From assembly GCA_016784875.1 (NCBI GenBank), contig JADHTX010000006.1:1-32207 (forward strand): DNA of 32,207 bases. The letters are read 5' to 3'. Within the stretch, counting starts at the first letter, position 1; the number at the start of each line of letters is the position of its first letter. This DNA is from Methylobacter sp. (GTDB lineage Bacteria > Pseudomonadota > Gammaproteobacteria > Methylococcales > Methylomonadaceae). Made by a program: the position numbers and the translations under genes. Of this stretch, positions 333 to 23,921 are shown piece by piece. A model generated the notes under the pieces. The model was not told where the DNA came from and searched no databases. It worked only from the letters and a program-made list of their open reading frames with translations.

Positions 333-1061
333 ATGTTTAAAAACCCTTTTATCAAACAATTATTCAGCAGTTTTCTGGACTTGGTGCCTATCCTTGCGGT
401 TGTTTTGATATTTCAGGTTTTTATTATTCGACAACCTATTCCTGATGTCGGTAGTTTAATCGGCGGCACTCTTTTTGTTATTTTGGGGCTGACCTTGTTT
501 GTCCAAGGGCTTGAGCAAAGCCTGTTCCCGATAGGCGAGGCGATGGCTTATGCTTTTGCCCGTAAAGGCAGTGTGTTTTGGCTGCTGGCTTTTGCCTTTT
601 GTTTGGGCTTCGGCACTACGGTGGCAGAACCGGCACTGATTGCTGTAGCTCAGGAAGCGGCTAATATTGCAGGTAATGCAGGCATTATCGAACCAACTGA
701 TGATGCAAAAGACGGCTATGCGCTGGGTTTACGCATTACCGTTGCGCTGTCGGTCGGCTTTGCTATTTTGGTTGGGGTGCTGAGAATTATCCGCGGCTGG
801 CCTTTGTATTACCTGATTATCGGCGGTTATTGCGGGGTGATTATGATGACCCCTTTTGCCCCCCCTGAAATCATCGGCATCGCCTACGATTCCGGCGGCG
901 TGACGACTTCGACTATTACGGTTCCGCTGGTGACTGCGTTGGGCGTTGGTCTGGCAACTGCCATTAAAGGACGTAACGCGATGGTTGACGGCTTCGGCCT
1001 GATTGCTTTTGCTTCATTAACGCCGATGATTTTCGTCATGGCCTACGGGATGCTGAGATGA
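333..1061 (+). CDS. DUF1538 family membrane protein, first paralogue
   Basis: This is a polytopic inner-membrane protein of 242 aa, with about six or seven hydrophobic segments by eye. It matches the DUF1538 family, whose function I do not know. Family-like signatures are [10 protein letters not shown] near residues 90-100 and DSGGVTTST starting at residue 186, followed by a hydrophobic TVPLVTALG stretch. The same motifs recur in the next gene, so the two are paralogues and probably form a heteromeric membrane unit. The stop overlaps the next start by 4 nt, which points to translational coupling. The Shine-Dalgarno is weak. The glycine- and threonine-rich motif inside a membrane segment would suit a transport path, but that is inference. 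Confidence 0.85.
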
Positions 1062-1837
1062 TTGATTGGATGAGTCAATTTGCGCTGGTTCTGCTGGCTA
1101 CTTGTCGGGATGTTTTACCTATTGCCGCGATTATTATCGGCTTTCAGATATTGGTTATCCGCAAACCTTTGGCTCATCCTAAAAAAATGCTGATTGGCTT
1201 TATCTATGTGTTACTAGGCATTGCATTTTTCCTGGAAGGCCTGGAAATGGCGCTGTTCCCGTTGGGAAAATTAATGGCAACTCAGCTGACTAACCCCGAA
1301 TTTCTAGGCATTAATCCCGCCGATCAGAACGTAAGTTGGCAGGCCTATTATTGGGTTTATGTATTTGCCGCTTGCATAGGTTTTGCAACTACGCTGGCAG
1401 AACCGTCTTTACTGGCGGTTGCCTGGAAAGCCCAACAGATTTCCGGCGGCACTATTCATGCGCTGGGACTGCGTATTGCCGTTTCGATGGGTGTCGCTTT
1501 CGGCATTGCACTGGGGGCTTATCGCATTGTGACCGGAGCGGAGTTATATTATTTTATTGTTGTAGGTTATGTCATTGTTCTGATACAAACCTTGTTTGCG
1601 CCTAAACTGATTATCGGTTTGGCTTATGATTCCGGCGGGGTGACGACATCGACGGTTACTGTTCCGTTGGTTACTGCATTGGGGTTAGGGTTGGCTTCTA
1701 CCGTTCCCGGTCGCAACCCGTTACTGGATGGTTTTGGCTTGATTGCCTTTGCCAGTTTATTTCCCATTATGGCTGTTTTAGGTTACGCGCAAATTGCACA
1801 ATGGCTTAATAAAGACAGTCTTTCATCTAAATCTTGA
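1058..1837 (+). CDS. DUF1538 family membrane protein, second paralogue
   Basis: This 259-aa integral membrane protein is paralogous to its upstream neighbour. Shared features are a QGLE/EGLE-type segment near the first third, [10 protein letters not shown], and DSGGVTTST starting at residue 191, followed by [13 protein letters not shown]. It is slightly longer because of an insert near residues 70-85. Its ATG overlaps the previous stop (ATGA), and its stop at 1835-1837 overlaps the Shine-Dalgarno of the P-II gene, so all are very likely on one transcript. Function is unknown; a two-subunit transporter or channel controlled by the downstream soluble proteins is my inference. Confidence 0.85.
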
Positions 1838-1845
1838 GGACAACC

Positions 1846-2196
1846 ATGCATTTCAAATTAATTATTGTTTTTGTCGAAGATGACAAGACGGATCTAGTGC
1901 TTGATACGGCGCGCGAGAATGGTGCTAAAGGTGCAACTGTCGTTAATAATGCTCGTGGCGAAGGGATGAAACAATCGAAAACTTTTTTCGGCTTGACTCT
2001 GGAAACGCAACGCGATGTGCTGTTGTTGCTAGTCGAAGAGCATCTCAGTCGACATATTTTGGAAGCCATCGCCAAAGTCGCGCAATTCGACAGCAAGCCC
2101 GGTACCGGTATAGCCATTCAGATCGATGTCGAAGATGCCGTGGGCGTCATGCATCAGGTTGAACAATTAACCCAGGAACTTGAGGATAAAATATGA
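1846..2196 (+). CDS. P-II family (GlnB-like) regulatory protein
   Basis: This small soluble protein of 116 aa has the P-II ferredoxin-like layout: an N-terminal strand (KLIIVFVEDDKTD), a GAKGATVV segment, a T-loop region (about residues 34-52), a second half rich in aliphatic residues, and a C-terminal GTGIAIQIDVEDAVGV stretch. The uridylylated tyrosine and the RG motif of GlnB T-loops are not apparent, so it is probably a divergent P-II-like sensor rather than GlnB or GlnK. I use the ATG at 1846 rather than the in-frame TTG at 1834, because GAGG at 1836-1839 is correctly spaced for it. By analogy with GlnK-AmtB or SbtB-SbtA it may gate the DUF1538 proteins; this is inference from position. 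Confidence 0.8.
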   Translation: MHFKLIIVFVEDDKTDLVLDTARENGAKGATVVNNARGEGMKQSKTFFGLTLETQRDVLLLLVEEHLSRHILEAIAKVAQFDSKPGTGIAIQIDVEDAVGVMHQVEQLTQELEDKI

Positions 2197-2609
2197 TTCC
2201 GCCACGCACTATAATTCGTGTCAAAGATGTGATGAAAATCGACTTCGGTACGATAGACGGCATTGCTACTATTGGCGATGCGCTAAAAAAGATGAAAATG
2301 CTTAAAACATCGGTGTTGATCGTTAATAAACGCCATGAAGATGATGAGTACGGTATGATTAATTCGGGCGACATTGCCCGTCATGTACTGGCTAAGGATC
2401 GTGCGCCGGACCGGGTTAATGTCTATGAAATAATGAATAAGCCTGTGATTACGGTACCTCCCGATATGGACATCCGCTATTGCTCGCGCCTATTTGCCAA
2501 CTATAACCTGGTTAGGGCGCCCGTCATTGAAAATAACAAGATTATCGGCATCGTCAGTCCGAATTCTCTGGTACTGGATGGGATGTATAGGCTGGTCAAT
2601 AAGGCTTAA
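2193..2609 (+). CDS. CBS-domain pair protein
   Basis: This is a 138-aa cytosolic protein made of two tandem CBS motifs. The first covers about residues 10-70 (VKDVMKIDFGTIDG, then VLIVNKR and GMINSGDIARHV). The second covers about residues 78-136 (YEIMNKPVITVPPDMDI, then RAPVIENNKIIGIVSPNSLV). CBS pairs usually bind adenine nucleotides such as AMP, ATP or SAM and control a partner. The gene starts inside the P-II stop codon region (4-nt overlap) and ends the operon. There is no fused catalytic domain, so it is probably an accessory sensor for the same membrane system. Confidence 0.88.
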   Translation: MIPPRTIIRVKDVMKIDFGTIDGIATIGDALKKMKMLKTSVLIVNKRHEDDEYGMINSGDIARHVLAKDRAPDRVNVYEIMNKPVITVPPDMDIRYCSRLFANYNLVRAPVIENNKIIGIVSPNSLVLDGMYRLVNKA

Positions 2610-7974: not shown

Positions 7975-8919
7975 ATGACAAGATTGACGGAAGAAGTGCC
8001 ATATGAAATGGCTGGCATGCGATTAGATCAGGTGCTGGCGGAATTATTCACCGATTATTCACGCAGCAAACTGCAAACCTGGGTTAAGGGGGGCCGGGTA
8101 CAGGTCAATGGCCTTACGCTTAAGCCTAAAGACAAACTGGTTGGGGGCGAAACGATAGATCTGGATGCCGAGGCGGAAGTGGTGATAACTGCTGAACCGG
8201 AGCCAATTCCATTGGAAATTGTTTTTGAAGACGACAGTCTGCTAATTGTGAATAAACCGGCAGGCTTGGTAGTTCATCCGGCAGTAGGAAATTGGAGCGG
8301 TACACTGTTAAATGCCTTGCTGAATCATGATGCCCACCTGGAAACGTTGCCTAGAGGCGGTATAGTACACAGGATTGATAAGGATACGAGCGGACTGTTG
8401 ATGGTTGCAAAAACCTTGCAAGCCCATAACAGTTTGACACAACAATTGCAGGACAGAGCGATTACCCGTGAATATCAGGCTATTACTCGAGGCCGTATGA
8501 CGGCCGGAGGTACAGTGGATGAGCCGATTGGCAGAGACCCTACCGATCGTAAACGCTATACAGTTAGGGAGAATGGCAAGCCTGCGGTGACCCACTATCG
8601 GGTTGGACAACGCTTTACTCGACATACGCTGGTTCAGGTTAAGCTGGAAACCGGTCGTACTCATCAGATCCGGGTGCATATGGCGTATATTCGTTTTCCT
8701 CTGCTGGGCGATCAAGTTTATGGCGGGCGCTTTCAAATGCCGCCGGATTGCAGTGAACAGTTGGAAAAAGAATTGCGCAGCTTCAAACGTCAGGCTTTGC
8801 ATGCGGCAAAGTTAGGTTTACAGCATCCCGTTAGCGATGAATATGTCGAATGGGAACAACCGCTGCCCGATGATATGACTCGATTGTTGGAAGCATTGGC
8901 GAAAAATGAGCGTGATTAA
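7975..8919 (+). CDS. rluD: 23S rRNA pseudouridine synthase RluD
   Basis: This is an RluA-family pseudouridine synthase. RluD modifies 23S rRNA helix 69 (positions 1911, 1915 and 1917 in E. coli). The 314-aa product has an N-terminal S4 RNA-binding domain (MRLDQVLAELFTDYSRSKL, about residues 15-33) and the catalytic motif GGIVHRIDKDTSGL with nucleophile Asp135. The C-terminal GRTHQIRVHMAYI motif is also present. Position opposite bamD and directly before pgeF supports RluD over RluA or RluC. Its 3' end overlaps pgeF by 14 nt. Confidence 0.94.
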   Translation: MTRLTEEVPYEMAGMRLDQVLAELFTDYSRSKLQTWVKGGRVQVNGLTLKPKDKLVGGETIDLDAEAEVVITAEPEPIPLEIVFEDDSLLIVNKPAGLVVHPAVGNWSGTLLNALLNHDAHLETLPRGGIVHRIDKDTSGLLMVAKTLQAHNSLTQQLQDRAITREYQAITRGRMTAGGTVDEPIGRDPTDRKRYTVRENGKPAVTHYRVGQRFTRHTLVQVKLETGRTHQIRVHMAYIRFPLLGDQVYGGRFQMPPDCSEQLEKELRSFKRQALHAAKLGLQHPVSDEYVEWEQPLPDDMTRLLEALAKNERD

Positions 8920-9691
8920 GCACTGGTTGACCCCGGAATGGCCCGCGCCGACAAATATTCATGCGGCAACAACATTGCGAACCGGTGGGGTTAGCGTCGG
9001 TACATACAGTAGTCTTAATCCGGCCATGCATGTGGGTGATGATGCAGGCCTCGTCAAACAAAACCGGCAAATTATTAAAGACTTGCTGGAATTGCCTGGC
9101 GATCCGGTTTGGCTGGATCAAATTCATAGCAATCGTGCGGTATCAGCATCCCCTTCTTTAGCTAAGGATAGCAGAGGGGAGGTGCATCAAGCCGATGCCA
9201 GTTATACGGCTGAGTGCGGGGTTGTTTGTGCGGTAATGACGGCGGACTGTTTGCCGTTGCTGGTTTGCTCGACTGACGGAAGTCAAGTGGCCGCTATTCA
9301 TGCAGGGTGGCGTGGTTTACTGGCAGGAGTGATAGGCAATACGCTAAGTGCAATGCAAATCCCCCGAGCCCCCCTTTGTAAAAGAGAGGCTCGGGGGGAT
9401 TTTCTGGTTTGGCTGGGGCCTGCAATCGGCCCGGACTGCTTTGAAGTCGGCGCTGAAGTAAGGGATGCTTTTCTGGAAAAATCGGCTGCATTCATAACGG
9501 CGTTTAAACCGCAAAGCAACAGAAAGTGGCTGGCAGATATTTATCAGCTGGCCATTATCGATCTCAATACACTGGGTATCAATAAGGTTTACGGAGGCGG
9601 TTTTTGTACCGTCACTGAACATGAACGTTTTTATTCCTATCGTAGGGATAAGCAAACAGGGCGTATGGCTACGCTAATTTGGAGAGCATAA
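8906..9691 (+). CDS. pgeF: Multicopper-type laccase domain protein PgeF (YfiH)
   Basis: This is the YfiH/DUF152 family. The E. coli protein is a peptidoglycan-editing purine-nucleoside-phosphorylase-like enzyme that removes wrongly incorporated amino acids from muropeptides. Zinc or copper ligands are visible in IHSNRAV, MTADCLPLLV and AIHAGWRGLLAG, and the conserved WLGPAIGP follows. Between AGWRGL and WLGPAIGP about 13-16 extra residues (about 152-167, IPRAPLCKREARGDF) are encoded exactly by a palindromic DNA repeat, inserted without breaking the frame. The gene overlaps rluD by 14 nt, so the two are translationally coupled. Confidence 0.92.
   Translation: MSVIKHWLTPEWPAPTNIHAATTLRTGGVSVGTYSSLNPAMHVGDDAGLVKQNRQIIKDLLELPGDPVWLDQIHSNRAVSASPSLAKDSRGEVHQADASYTAECGVVCAVMTADCLPLLVCSTDGSQVAAIHAGWRGLLAGVIGNTLSAMQIPRAPLCKREARGDFLVWLGPAIGPDCFEVGAEVRDAFLEKSAAFITAFKPQSNRKWLADIYQLAIIDLNTLGINKVYGGGFCTVTEHERFYSYRRDKQTGRMATLIWRA
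9357..9402. repeat. Palindromic repeat element inserted in frame in pgeF
   Basis: The arms AAATCCCCC plus GAGCC (9357-9370) and GGCTC plus GGGGGGATTT (9388-9402) are inverted copies around a short loop containing CCCCTTTGTAAAAGAGA. Hairpins of this kind are normally intergenic; here one occupies codons of pgeF. On the opposite strand it reads open in several frames, which explains the spurious ORFs there. Confidence 0.8.
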
Positions 9692-9694
9692 AGA

Positions 9695-10519
9695 GTGAGC
9701 TTACTGATATTAATTATCATCTTTACAGCGGTTGGCGGGGTATTAAGTGTTATGGCAGCCGCAGTGTTTTTATTGTTGCCGGATCATCTCAGGAACGCGG
9801 TGTTACCGCATGGGATAAGTTTTGCAATTGGTGCATTATTGGCGGTCGCCTTTTGGGGCTTGATTCCCGAGGCATTTGAGCAAGTGAAGCCCGAACAGTT
9901 TCAAGTGTTATCCGGGGCAATTTTATCGGGGATACTCGGTTTTTTTGTACTGGAAAAGTTGTTAATCTGGCGTCATTGTCATTCCGGTAGCTGCGAGGCT
10001 CACGGCGATGAAGAAAGCCACGACCACGACCATGATCACGGGCATAGCCATGGCTCGGCTAAATCGGCAGGTGCGTTAATTATCCTGGGCGATGGTATCC
10101 ATAATTTTGTCGATGGGGTTTTAATTGCTGCTGCATTTTTGACTGATGTGCAATTGGGAATAGTTACCAGCTTGGCCGTTGCGGCGCACGAAATTCCCCA
10201 GGAAGTTGGTGATTTTGCTATTTTACTGCACAGTGGATATTCCAAAAGAAAAGCGCTTTTTTACAATATGCTTGCAAGTTTAACTACTGTGTTGGGTGGT
10301 GTGTTAGCGTATTTCGGGTTAGAAGATTTGCACGATAGTTTGCCGTATTTCCTGGCATTGGCGGCCTCAAGCTTTATTTATATTGCAGTAGCCGATTTAA
10401 TACCGTCATTACATAAAAAGACCGATATGAAGACATCATTGCAACAGATTGGTTTGATTGCTATGGGGGTATTGTTGATCTGTTCATTGCATGGCATTGC
10501 ACATAGTATGGCGGGGTAG
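9695..10519 (+). CDS. ZIP family divalent metal transporter
   Basis: This 274-aa inner-membrane protein has about eight membrane segments of the ZIP type. Transport-site motifs are GDGIHNFVDG (segment IV) and AAHEIPQEVGD (segment V). Between them and segment III lies a histidine-rich cytosolic loop (ESHDHDHDHGHSHG, near residues 108-121) that binds metal. The likely substrate is zinc, possibly iron or manganese. It starts with GTG three nt after the pgeF stop, so it is probably cotranscribed with rluD-pgeF, in a place where many relatives carry clpB. Confidence 0.9.
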   Translation: MSLLILIIIFTAVGGVLSVMAAAVFLLLPDHLRNAVLPHGISFAIGALLAVAFWGLIPEAFEQVKPEQFQVLSGAILSGILGFFVLEKLLIWRHCHSGSCEAHGDEESHDHDHDHGHSHGSAKSAGALIILGDGIHNFVDGVLIAAAFLTDVQLGIVTSLAVAAHEIPQEVGDFAILLHSGYSKRKALFYNMLASLTTVLGGVLAYFGLEDLHDSLPYFLALAASSFIYIAVADLIPSLHKKTDMKTSLQQIGLIAMGVLLICSLHGIAHSMAG

Positions 10520-21680: not shown

Positions 21681-21773
21681 GAGCGAGTCAAAGAGGTAAA
21701 AAACGGAAACAAAGCACAGTATTAGGGATAAATGTGCATATTATTAGTCATAACACTATTTGGGGACAAGGTC

Positions 21774-23921
21774 ATGACTAATTTATCTTTTAATAACAGC
21801 AGCAGATACATTGCTATGGACAATCGTCAGCAAATAAATTCAGGTTTGGTTAAAGCCAATAAGGCCGCGATATTAGGTAAAGTTAAGCCGATTTTTTTTC
21901 AGCATTTCGAGCAAGCTGTCAACGATTGCTGTATGCGTATTGATGTTGAATTCGGCTTGCAGTTAGGTAAAAATCGCGAAAAAATGAACAAAGAACAGTA
22001 TATAAAATTGCTGGACTATCTTCGTTCAGTTCGTAGAGATATTAAACAAGATTATTTGTTAAAAGTTAACGATATTTTCGACGACAGTGATCGAAATATC
22101 GCAAAAAAACAGAAAGGACAATTAGACTTATCTAATGTTTCGCTAATTAGTGAGGATGCGGTAAAAGAAAATCATGCAGTTACTGCAATTATTCGTCAAT
22201 GTGAGCACATATTTTATGAAGAATTGACCAGTTTGAATAAGCTTATTGCAGTCCAGCCGAGAAAACAAACGATTGCCGACAGTCAAATTTCGATATTCCC
22301 GGCGAAATTGGTTCGTGCCTTAGTCGAGGTTATCAAGCCGCTGAAGTTAAATATAGATAGCCGAATTGCGGTATATAAAACATTTGAAGTTACTGTCTTT
22401 AGTCAGTTGGGATTTATTTATTGTGATCTGGTCAAACAGTGCGAAGCTGATGAGATTCCAGAGATTGCGGTGGAAGAGCGCAACTGTGAGCCGACTATTA
22501 CGCCGTTCTATGTTATAGGTGAGATTAAAGAAAAAGCTGAGGCAGCTTCTGAGAGCACTAAACAGATAAGTGCAGAGTTTACATTGCTACAAAAAAAACT
22601 GGAGCTATGGAGATGGGTCCATTTCCCTTCTGCTTACGATTCAATGTCAGTTACCGGAAATGCGATTTATCAGCACTTTGAAATTATAAATGCATTGCAA
22701 GTGCTTCAGCAGTTTAAGGGTGACGTAGATTCGGGTGAAAAAAAACAACCGTTAAAATGGCACGTACTTAAAAAACTGAAAGATCTGAGTTTTAGTGTGG
22801 ATGTCAAGATGTTGGCGAAGCATGATGAGGATGTGCTGGACTTGGTGGCTTTGATTTTTAGCGGAATAAGGGAAGATGATTCGCTTCAAGAGTTTGTGAA
22901 AACAGCTATTTTACAGCTGGAAATTCCGTTTGCAGTGGCATCTTTAGGGCGATACGGTATTTTCTTCAATCCCCAGAATTCGGTTAGGCAGTTACTTGAT
23001 GATGTGTTTGCCGCCGGAAGGTTTTTAAATGCGGAAGAGTATGACGACCAGTTAGTTCAAGAACGTATTGTAAGTGCAGTTAAAAAAATAACTCAGGATA
23101 ATGATTTCGAACTTTCCGTCTGGACGGCAGAAGCGCGTGAGTTTTCCACTTATTTAAGCAAACAAAAGCAGCGAACCGAACATATCGAAGAGAATGTCAG
23201 GCAGTTTATAATTAATGGGCAGGCATTGAGGGCGAGTAGAAAAATTGTCGCTATAGCGATTGAAAACAGCTTAATGGGTAAAACGGTACCGACAGCAATA
23301 ACTGAGTTTTTGCATGAAGTATGGTCTGATGTGTTGCTGGATGCCTATACAGGAAAAGATGAGTTTCCCGAGCGCTGGGAAAAATCGGTGCGGGCTATGG
23401 ATGAGTTGATTGTAAGTGTTATGTCACCGGCAGATGAGCAGCAACAAAAACAGATATTAAAATTGTTGCCGGGGTTGATTGCAGAATTAAGAAAAGGCTT
23501 GAAGCAAATTTCATTCGATAAATCCGAGCAAGCACGTTTTTTTAAAGATCTTGCCGTATGGCATATTATCCTAATGGATAAAAAAGAAATTAATAGAACG
23601 CTGGATGATTTGGGAGAGCAACAAATTAAGGATGAGAAAATAACCGCGGGAGCGGTAGCAGATGACAGCTTGGAGCAGGCTAAAAGCCTTGCTGTGGGAA
23701 GCTGGATTGTATTCATTACCGGAACCGAAAAGCAATGGGGCAAGTTGCTTTGGATAGAGGACGAAACCATGATCTTTGTCGGTAAAAACGGAGTAAAAAT
23801 ATTTGAAATTCAGATGGACGAGTTAGCAGAAAAGCTGCTGCTAGGGCAGGCTGCTATTATTAACGATGATGAAAAAGCGACGATTACCGAACGCGTACTT
23901 TCCGAATTAATGGGCTTATGA
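21774..23921 (+). CDS. DUF1631 family protein
   Basis: This large cytosolic protein (715 aa from ATG 21774) is mostly helical and charged. The C-terminal module (GSWIVFITGTEKQWGKLLW, then IFVGKNGVKIFEIQMDELA) looks like a small beta-barrel and matches the DUF1631 family found between ampD and nadC in Pseudomonas relatives. I know of no established function. I prefer 21774 to the upstream TTG/ATG options because GGGGACAAGG precedes it. The stop overlaps nadC (ATGA). Confidence 0.85.
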   Translation: MTNLSFNNSSRYIAMDNRQQINSGLVKANKAAILGKVKPIFFQHFEQAVNDCCMRIDVEFGLQLGKNREKMNKEQYIKLLDYLRSVRRDIKQDYLLKVNDIFDDSDRNIAKKQKGQLDLSNVSLISEDAVKENHAVTAIIRQCEHIFYEELTSLNKLIAVQPRKQTIADSQISIFPAKLVRALVEVIKPLKLNIDSRIAVYKTFEVTVFSQLGFIYCDLVKQCEADEIPEIAVEERNCEPTITPFYVIGEIKEKAEAASESTKQISAEFTLLQKKLELWRWVHFPSAYDSMSVTGNAIYQHFEIINALQVLQQFKGDVDSGEKKQPLKWHVLKKLKDLSFSVDVKMLAKHDEDVLDLVALIFSGIREDDSLQEFVKTAILQLEIPFAVASLGRYGIFFNPQNSVRQLLDDVFAAGRFLNAEEYDDQLVQERIVSAVKKITQDNDFELSVWTAEAREFSTYLSKQKQRTEHIEENVRQFIINGQALRASRKIVAIAIENSLMGKTVPTAITEFLHEVWSDVLLDAYTGKDEFPERWEKSVRAMDELIVSVMSPADEQQQKQILKLLPGLIAELRKGLKQISFDKSEQARFFKDLAVWHIILMDKKEINRTLDDLGEQQIKDEKITAGAVADDSLEQAKSLAVGSWIVFITGTEKQWGKLLWIEDETMIFVGKNGVKIFEIQMDELAEKLLLGQAAIINDDEKATITERVLSELMGL

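Follow-up and report, generated by a model that had tools for sequence, protein, structure and literature searches.

A probable UmpAB-type cation/proton antiporter operon with putative PII-like and CBS regulators in Methylobacter sp.

Introduction

Within the window considered here, the 32,207 nucleotides of contig JADHTX010000006.1 from Methylobacter sp. (Pseudomonadota; Gammaproteobacteria; Methylococcales), a single operon encodes two DUF1538 membrane proteins, a PII-like protein and a stand-alone pair of CBS domains. We consider it fairly likely that this operon specifies a monovalent cation/proton antiporter of the UmpAB type together with its own PII-like and CBS regulators. The operon structure, the homology of the membrane proteins to Halomonas UmpA and UmpB and the conservation of the gene order are documented at the sequence level. 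The antiporter family is known and the conserved PII/CBS regulatory module is apparently undescribed: no publication linking DUF1538, UmpA or UmpB with PII was found in a search of open-access journal papers.

UmpAB of Halomonas zhaodongensis was cloned by Meng and co-workers through complementation of an Escherichia coli strain deprived of its main Na+/H+ antiporters; in vesicles it is reported to catalyse Na+(Li+,K+)/H+ antiport that depends on pH and is attributed to a heterodimer (PMC5484666). The two proteins are also reported to co-immunoprecipitate, both genes being needed for the full effect (PMC5484666). The original prediction that the DUF1538 proteins of the window form a heteromeric transporter or channel is therefore supported, having already been published for this Halomonas homologue (PMC5484666). 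According to the same report, the set of UmpAB homologues includes Methylosarcina, Methyloglobulus, Mariprofundus, Vibrio and Desulfobacula (PMC5484666). Elsewhere, UmpAB is cited as a salinity adaptation in the genomes of cable bacteria (PMC12093952), and DUF1538 appears in a machine-learning table of genes of pH adaptation (PMC13255231).

Organization of the operon

Open reading frame calls reproduced the coordinates originally predicted for a four-gene operon at 333-2609, and Pfam searches the gene families (Table 1), with gathering cut-offs of 22.6 bits for PF07556, 25 for PF00543 and 24 for PF00571. The genes lie on one strand, with 4-bp overlaps at two of the three junctions, namely between the first and second DUF1538 genes (ATGA) and between the PII and CBS genes. 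At the third junction the ATG of the PII gene follows the second DUF1538 gene after an 8-bp gap; an alternative start, a TTG at 1834, lies upstream and would overlap the second DUF1538 gene.

Table 1. Genes of the operon, with positions given in the window
Product	Position	Strand	Length	Pfam match
UmpA-like DUF1538 membrane protein	333..1061	+	242 aa	PF07556, 2.5e-68, 230 bits
UmpB-like DUF1538 membrane protein	1058..1837	+	259 aa	PF07556, 3.2e-67, 226.4 bits
PII-like protein	1846..2196	+	116 aa from ATG	PF00543, 1.6e-9, 38.5 bits
Stand-alone CBS pair	2193..2609	+	138 aa	PF00571, 8.2e-18, 64.9 bits, two stretches

The contig begins 332 bp upstream of the operon, and the next gene downstream, encoding DsbB, starts about 330 bp further on. 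In the source genome, which is about 81 percent complete, a single DUF1538 pair was detected; a different contig encodes one additional PII, which Pfam matches strongly. Promoter and terminator scans of the window remained at shuffle level, and tRNA and Rfam searches of it gave no match.

The DUF1538 pair

Among the NCBIfam models the first DUF1538 protein is matched best by UmpA (NF041627, 357 bits against an equivalog cut-off of 490) and the second by UmpB (NF041628, 335 bits against 500). The pair thus comprises one UmpA-like and one UmpB-like gene, as in UmpAB, with both proteins below the equivalog level. It shares with Halomonas UmpAB the pairing of DUF1538 proteins of about 240-270 aa, the overlap of their genes, the roughly seven membrane segments of each protein and the conserved acidic residues. 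The 4.2-kb Halomonas clone is described as carrying four ORFs, one of them cut, with umpB the last numbered (PMC5484666). Unlike the window, the published clone has no reported PII or CBS ORF, and these terms are absent from the main text of the paper (PMC5484666). The motifs DSGGVTTST and TT(V/L)AEP, noticed in the original prediction, are indeed found in both window proteins.

The sub-threshold scores bear on the strongest of the alternatives, according to which the pair transports another substrate (e.g., ammonium, bicarbonate or a metabolite) under PII gating, the antiport seen in Halomonas being a secondary activity or one that arose by divergence. Such a reading would also fit the known gating of the ammonium channel AmtB and of the bicarbonate transporter SbtA by PII proteins, as well as the extension of the DUF1538 family to anaerobic Clostridia. 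However, the UmpA cut-off looks narrow rather than discriminating, because no genome among the 369 of a class-level sample attains it, and the published set of UmpAB homologues is reported to include several groups matching the relatives of the window proteins (PMC5484666). On balance another substrate appears unlikely, and transport of monovalent cations in exchange for protons is the function that we prefer for the pair.

As regards membrane topology, counts of K and R in the loops, read by the positive-inside rule, orient UmpA with its N-terminus inside in 180 of 182 aligned proteins and UmpB with its N-terminus outside in 178 of 180; this charge-bias test was not blind, because the segment limits were picked with the hydropathy profile in view. 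Moreover, in nine DUF1538 proteins in which the two repeats are fused, the linker between them measures 32-41 residues, and its peak 17-residue hydropathy is at most 0.8 in seven proteins and 1.3-1.4 in the other two; if each repeat has seven segments, the two would run antiparallel. Charge bias and fused-form linkers together make it probable that UmpA and UmpB form an antiparallel transporter of two repeats. Opposite topology is not proposed in the Halomonas paper, where the words topology, inverted and antiparallel do not occur (PMC5484666).

A structure was predicted for the UmpB half only (pLDDT 89, pTM 0.82). In this model two helices are broken at the conserved motifs TTLAEP and GVTTST, which suggests an ion site at these breaks. 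A Foldseek comparison of the model with solved structures gave no match below 0.001, the best being 0.35, and VIA-align applied to the same candidates gave Z 5.7 at most, a range of little meaning. No solved structure was a clear match, but we do not propose a new fold. The basic C-terminal tail of UmpB would be cytoplasmic and is a possible docking site for PII. Two scans of viral contigs returned no DUF1538 relative.

The PII-like protein

The third gene product belongs to the PII superfamily, as indicated by a PF00543 match above the cut-off and by the ferredoxin-like PII fold of its predicted structure (pLDDT 82.6, with a low-confidence T-loop). The top Foldseek matches of this model, at E about 4e-6 to 7e-6, are TTHA0516, SbtB and CPII; GlnK follows closely. 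In VIA-align, canonical PII, CPII and SbtB are tied at Z 10.4-11.2, a range into which CutA and a NIF3 protein also fall; the comparison with GlnK1 gives Z 11.2 and an rmsd of 3.3 over 95 residues.

The operon recalls GlnK-AmtB in that a protein of PII fold is encoded beside a transporter, as by glnK-amtB in E. coli, and departs from it in three features of the PII protein itself. The tyrosine of GlnB, whose absence had been remarked in the original prediction, is missing: the protein contains no tyrosine at all, and the GlnK stretch around tyrosine 51, canonical in GlnB and GlnK, faces an alignment gap. The T-loop is six residues shorter than that of E. coli GlnK. Finally, the positions of GlnK K90 and R101/R103 are not basic in the window protein (GTGIAIQ and DAVGVM vs GDGKIFV and RVIRIR); in canonical PII these residues are phosphate-binding contacts. 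Nucleotide sensing is thus unproven for the PII-like protein, since the canonical phosphate-binding residues are absent, and if the protein binds a nucleotide at all, its sequence implies a mode different from that of GlnB.

With SbtA-SbtB the operon shares a membrane transporter adjoined by a dedicated PII-like gene, SbtB being among the best fold matches. It differs in the membrane protein, the gene directly upstream of PII encoding DUF1538 and not SbtA in the window as in almost every relative sampled, and in its CBS gene, a partner not mentioned in the available text on SbtB (PMC8352866). A further parallel is the PII-NG clade, reported to lie beside the proton-driven cation exporter CzcABC (PMC7726332). 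The likeness lies in a PII gene beside a proton-driven cation exporter; CzcABC is found neither in the window operon nor among the downstream genes scanned with Pfam, the contig starting 332 bp upstream.

Five positions are invariant among 126 sampled PII sequences. Three belong to G-A-x-G-A-T, namely its threonine and its two outer glycines, while A-R-G-E-G contributes its first glycine and T-F-F-G-L its only one; the remaining letters of these motifs are majority residues. When 189 pair systems were sorted by two letters of the T-loop, CBS was present in 153 of the 163 with GE and absent from 15 of the 21 with GT, five systems having other letters. This pattern could be explained by lineage alone.

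The CBS protein

The fourth gene product is a CBS-domain protein, with a tandem pair above the PF00571 cut-off. Its nearest solved relative is the cyanobacterial CBS-CP12 (5nmu; phmmer 3.9e-24, profile 1.8e-36), with which it shares the CBS pair and an RHE-x-D-x-YG stretch. It differs from CBS-CP12 in lacking the CP12 tail, the match to 5nmu spanning residues 7-127 of 138, after which the protein ends, and in being encoded by a separate gene inside a transporter operon. CBS-CP12 is reported to bind AMP (PMC9406205). By analogy with this relative, nucleotide sensing by the CBS protein is plausible and AMP is its putative ligand. A further candidate is c-di-AMP, since some papers on c-di-AMP contain the terms PII-like, antiporter and CBS domain. 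In a mutual-information analysis of covariation across 163 four-gene systems, CBS-CBS pairs formed the largest class among the top 300.

Conservation of the gene neighbourhood

DUF1538 is carried by 116 of 299 genomes spread over the phylum and by 120 of 201 genomes of the order. Loci were fetched from 83 of the former (86 loci) and 40 of the latter (40 loci), giving, with the window, 127 loci and 130 DUF1538 systems among the matches listed, a sample in which high-scoring DUF1538 genes are over-represented. A PII gene was counted as directly downstream when it shared the strand of DUF1538 and lay no more than 300 bp away. The original prediction depended on PII and CBS genes recurring as neighbours of DUF1538 elsewhere. 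For PII this holds, the gene being directly downstream in 124 of the 130 systems of phylum and order among the matches listed, and present in 79 of the best 80 of at least 588 loci from named genomes. For CBS the recurrence depends on lineage: the gene follows PII in 95 of the 130 systems, again among the matches listed, and in 78 of the best 80 named loci. The titles of these 80 include Vibrio, Aliiroseovarius, Sedimenticola, Desulfobacula, Desulfamplus and Desulfobulbaceae; the top named matches are from Methylococcaceae and Methylococcales, in keeping with a source that is probably a methane oxidiser.

Six of the 130 systems are without a downstream PII. In one of them (L034) the PII gene lies directly upstream of the DUF1538 pair, in another (L141) the contig stops 134 bp after DUF1538, and in the remaining four (L066, L068, L084 and L116) no PII was found beside the pair despite contig to spare. 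PII is present without CBS in 29 of the systems among the matches listed, two of which end at a contig edge; CBS is therefore absent from 25 pair systems and two fused systems with PII and contig to spare.

In a sample of 369 genomes at class level, 101 have a match to the UmpA model at E 1e-90. Twenty loci were fetched from 19 of these 101 genomes, mostly top scorers with a few of the lowest; PII is directly downstream in 18 and CBS present in 19. The exceptions for PII are a locus where it lies 1.4 kb away (L303) and one without it (L311).

The recurrence of this gene arrangement far exceeds that of chance neighbours. A role of CBS as a core partner was considered and rejected, because the gene is absent from the 27 systems just mentioned and from all eight of the plasmid regions described below. 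CBS is an add-on, common and lineage-dependent.

Co-occurrence in genomes and PII paralogues

Among the 299 genomes, 113 have both DUF1538 and a match to the PII profile, three DUF1538 only, 15 the PII profile only and 168 neither (Fisher p 4e-61, a value that is only indicative because the genomes are related). The three genomes with DUF1538 and no match to the PII profile are G172, G218 and G245. In the PII-only genomes some matches are weak and others strong (e.g., G022 and G181).

Some paralogues of the PII subfamily lie beside genes encoding SH3_3 domains (L256, L257, L262 and L263) or near MutS (L260), with no DUF1538 in the stretches fetched around them. Moreover, a PII-CBS pair occurs directly behind a gene for malic enzyme/phosphotransacetylase at L269:161-1001 and L270:141-955, in the same two genomes in which the DUF1538 pair sits elsewhere (L068 and L084). 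Because these paralogues adjoin other genes, the tie is partial: the PII subfamily is mostly, not only, linked to DUF1538.

Both observations, the separated PII-CBS pair of these two genomes and the paralogues beside other genes, speak for a second alternative, in which PII and CBS are produced together with UmpAB and inform other targets of the cation or energy status, the antiporter itself being left ungated. Against it stands the position of PII directly behind DUF1538 in the large majority of the systems sampled, distant fused forms included. We judge this second alternative improbable, placing it after that of another substrate, and keep the antiporter as the likelier target of its neighbouring regulators.

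Fused forms and plasmid regions

Nine plasmid records match UmpB, and eight of the regions were fetched. PII directly follows DUF1538 in all eight, and CBS was found in none of them. Six are from Clostridia (Paraclostridium twice, Peptoclostridium, Acetoanaerobium, Subdoligranulum and Vescimonas); in all six DUF1538 is a single chain of two repeats, followed by PII as a single chain of two PII domains, the first of which is weak in Vescimonas (E 0.0047). These two-domain PII proteins (L248, L250-L254) are about 217-229 aa long, with one ORF of 305 aa. In the two alphaproteobacterial regions (Methylocystis and Chelativorans) a DUF1538 gene pair is accompanied by a single-domain PII, the first DUF1538 gene of Chelativorans being annotated short.

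In the phylum sample, fused DUF1538 is followed by PII and CBS in five loci (L034, L051, L058, L092 and L098) and by PII without CBS in two (L069 and L085). Two PII proteins from loci of fused DUF1538 share 31 and 35 percent identity with that of the window. Since both partners are single fused chains in Clostridia, transporter and regulator have been kept together through their joining.

Simple co-inheritance of adjacent genes among relatives, without any functional connection, would be in keeping with four short, tightly packed genes and with a sample drawn largely from Pseudomonadota; it is highly improbable, as the link to PII is seen in Pseudomonadota, in Bacillota and in loci titled Desulfobulbaceae, Desulfobacula and Desulfamplus, persists where both partners have been duplicated and fused, and holds in the two-by-two count of genomes.

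Two further arrangements were seen. At L034:3496-7687 a fused DUF1538 system with PII and CBS stands back to back with an unfused pair that has its PII upstream. In addition, a second, divergent type of fused DUF1538, with its own PII and no CBS match, occurs at L265, L266, L272, L273 and L274, loci that were chosen by their PII matches; some of the genomes with this type also carry the pair type.

Proposed mechanism

Antiport by the Methylobacter proteins, ligand binding by their partners and gating of the transporter are functions that we infer, with support that falls from the antiparallel heterodimer to cation/proton antiport, then to gating by PII and finally to AMP input through CBS. In the mechanism proposed for the UmpAB-type antiporter, UmpA and UmpB would be inserted in the membrane in antiparallel fashion and jointly make up a single transporter of two repeats, which in other lineages is one fused chain. 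A trimer of the PII-like protein would dock on UmpAB from the cytoplasmic side, with the T-loop as the contact, and throttle transport. This gating is modelled on GlnK-AmtB and on SbtB-SbtA, for which entry of the SbtB T-loop into a cleft of SbtA has been reported (PMC8352866). The CBS protein would read AMP or another adenine nucleotide and modulate the same switch, probably via PII. In this way, export of Na+/K+ driven by the entry of protons would be tied to the energy state of the cell.

Taken in its full detail, that is, as a PII-gated, antiparallel two-repeat cation/proton antiporter for which a CBS protein of the CP12 type acts as co-sensor of AMP, both transporter and PII-like regulator being single joined chains in Clostridia, the proposal is tentative, and we hold it with more hesitation than the general assignment to a regulated UmpAB-type antiporter. 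Cation/pH homeostasis and PII signalling have mostly been studied apart. If the proposal is true, it would add a third arm to the control of transport by PII, beside those of ammonium and bicarbonate; a widespread antiporter would come under energy-state sensors, and a little-studied one would gain its missing subunits.

Other genes of the window

Two other parts of the window may be mentioned. A row of genes on the + strand at 7975-10519 encodes an RNA pseudouridine synthase, a Cu-oxidase_4 protein and a metal transporter of the ZIP family, and a DUF1631 protein of 729 aa is encoded at 21732-23921 (E 2.4e-87).
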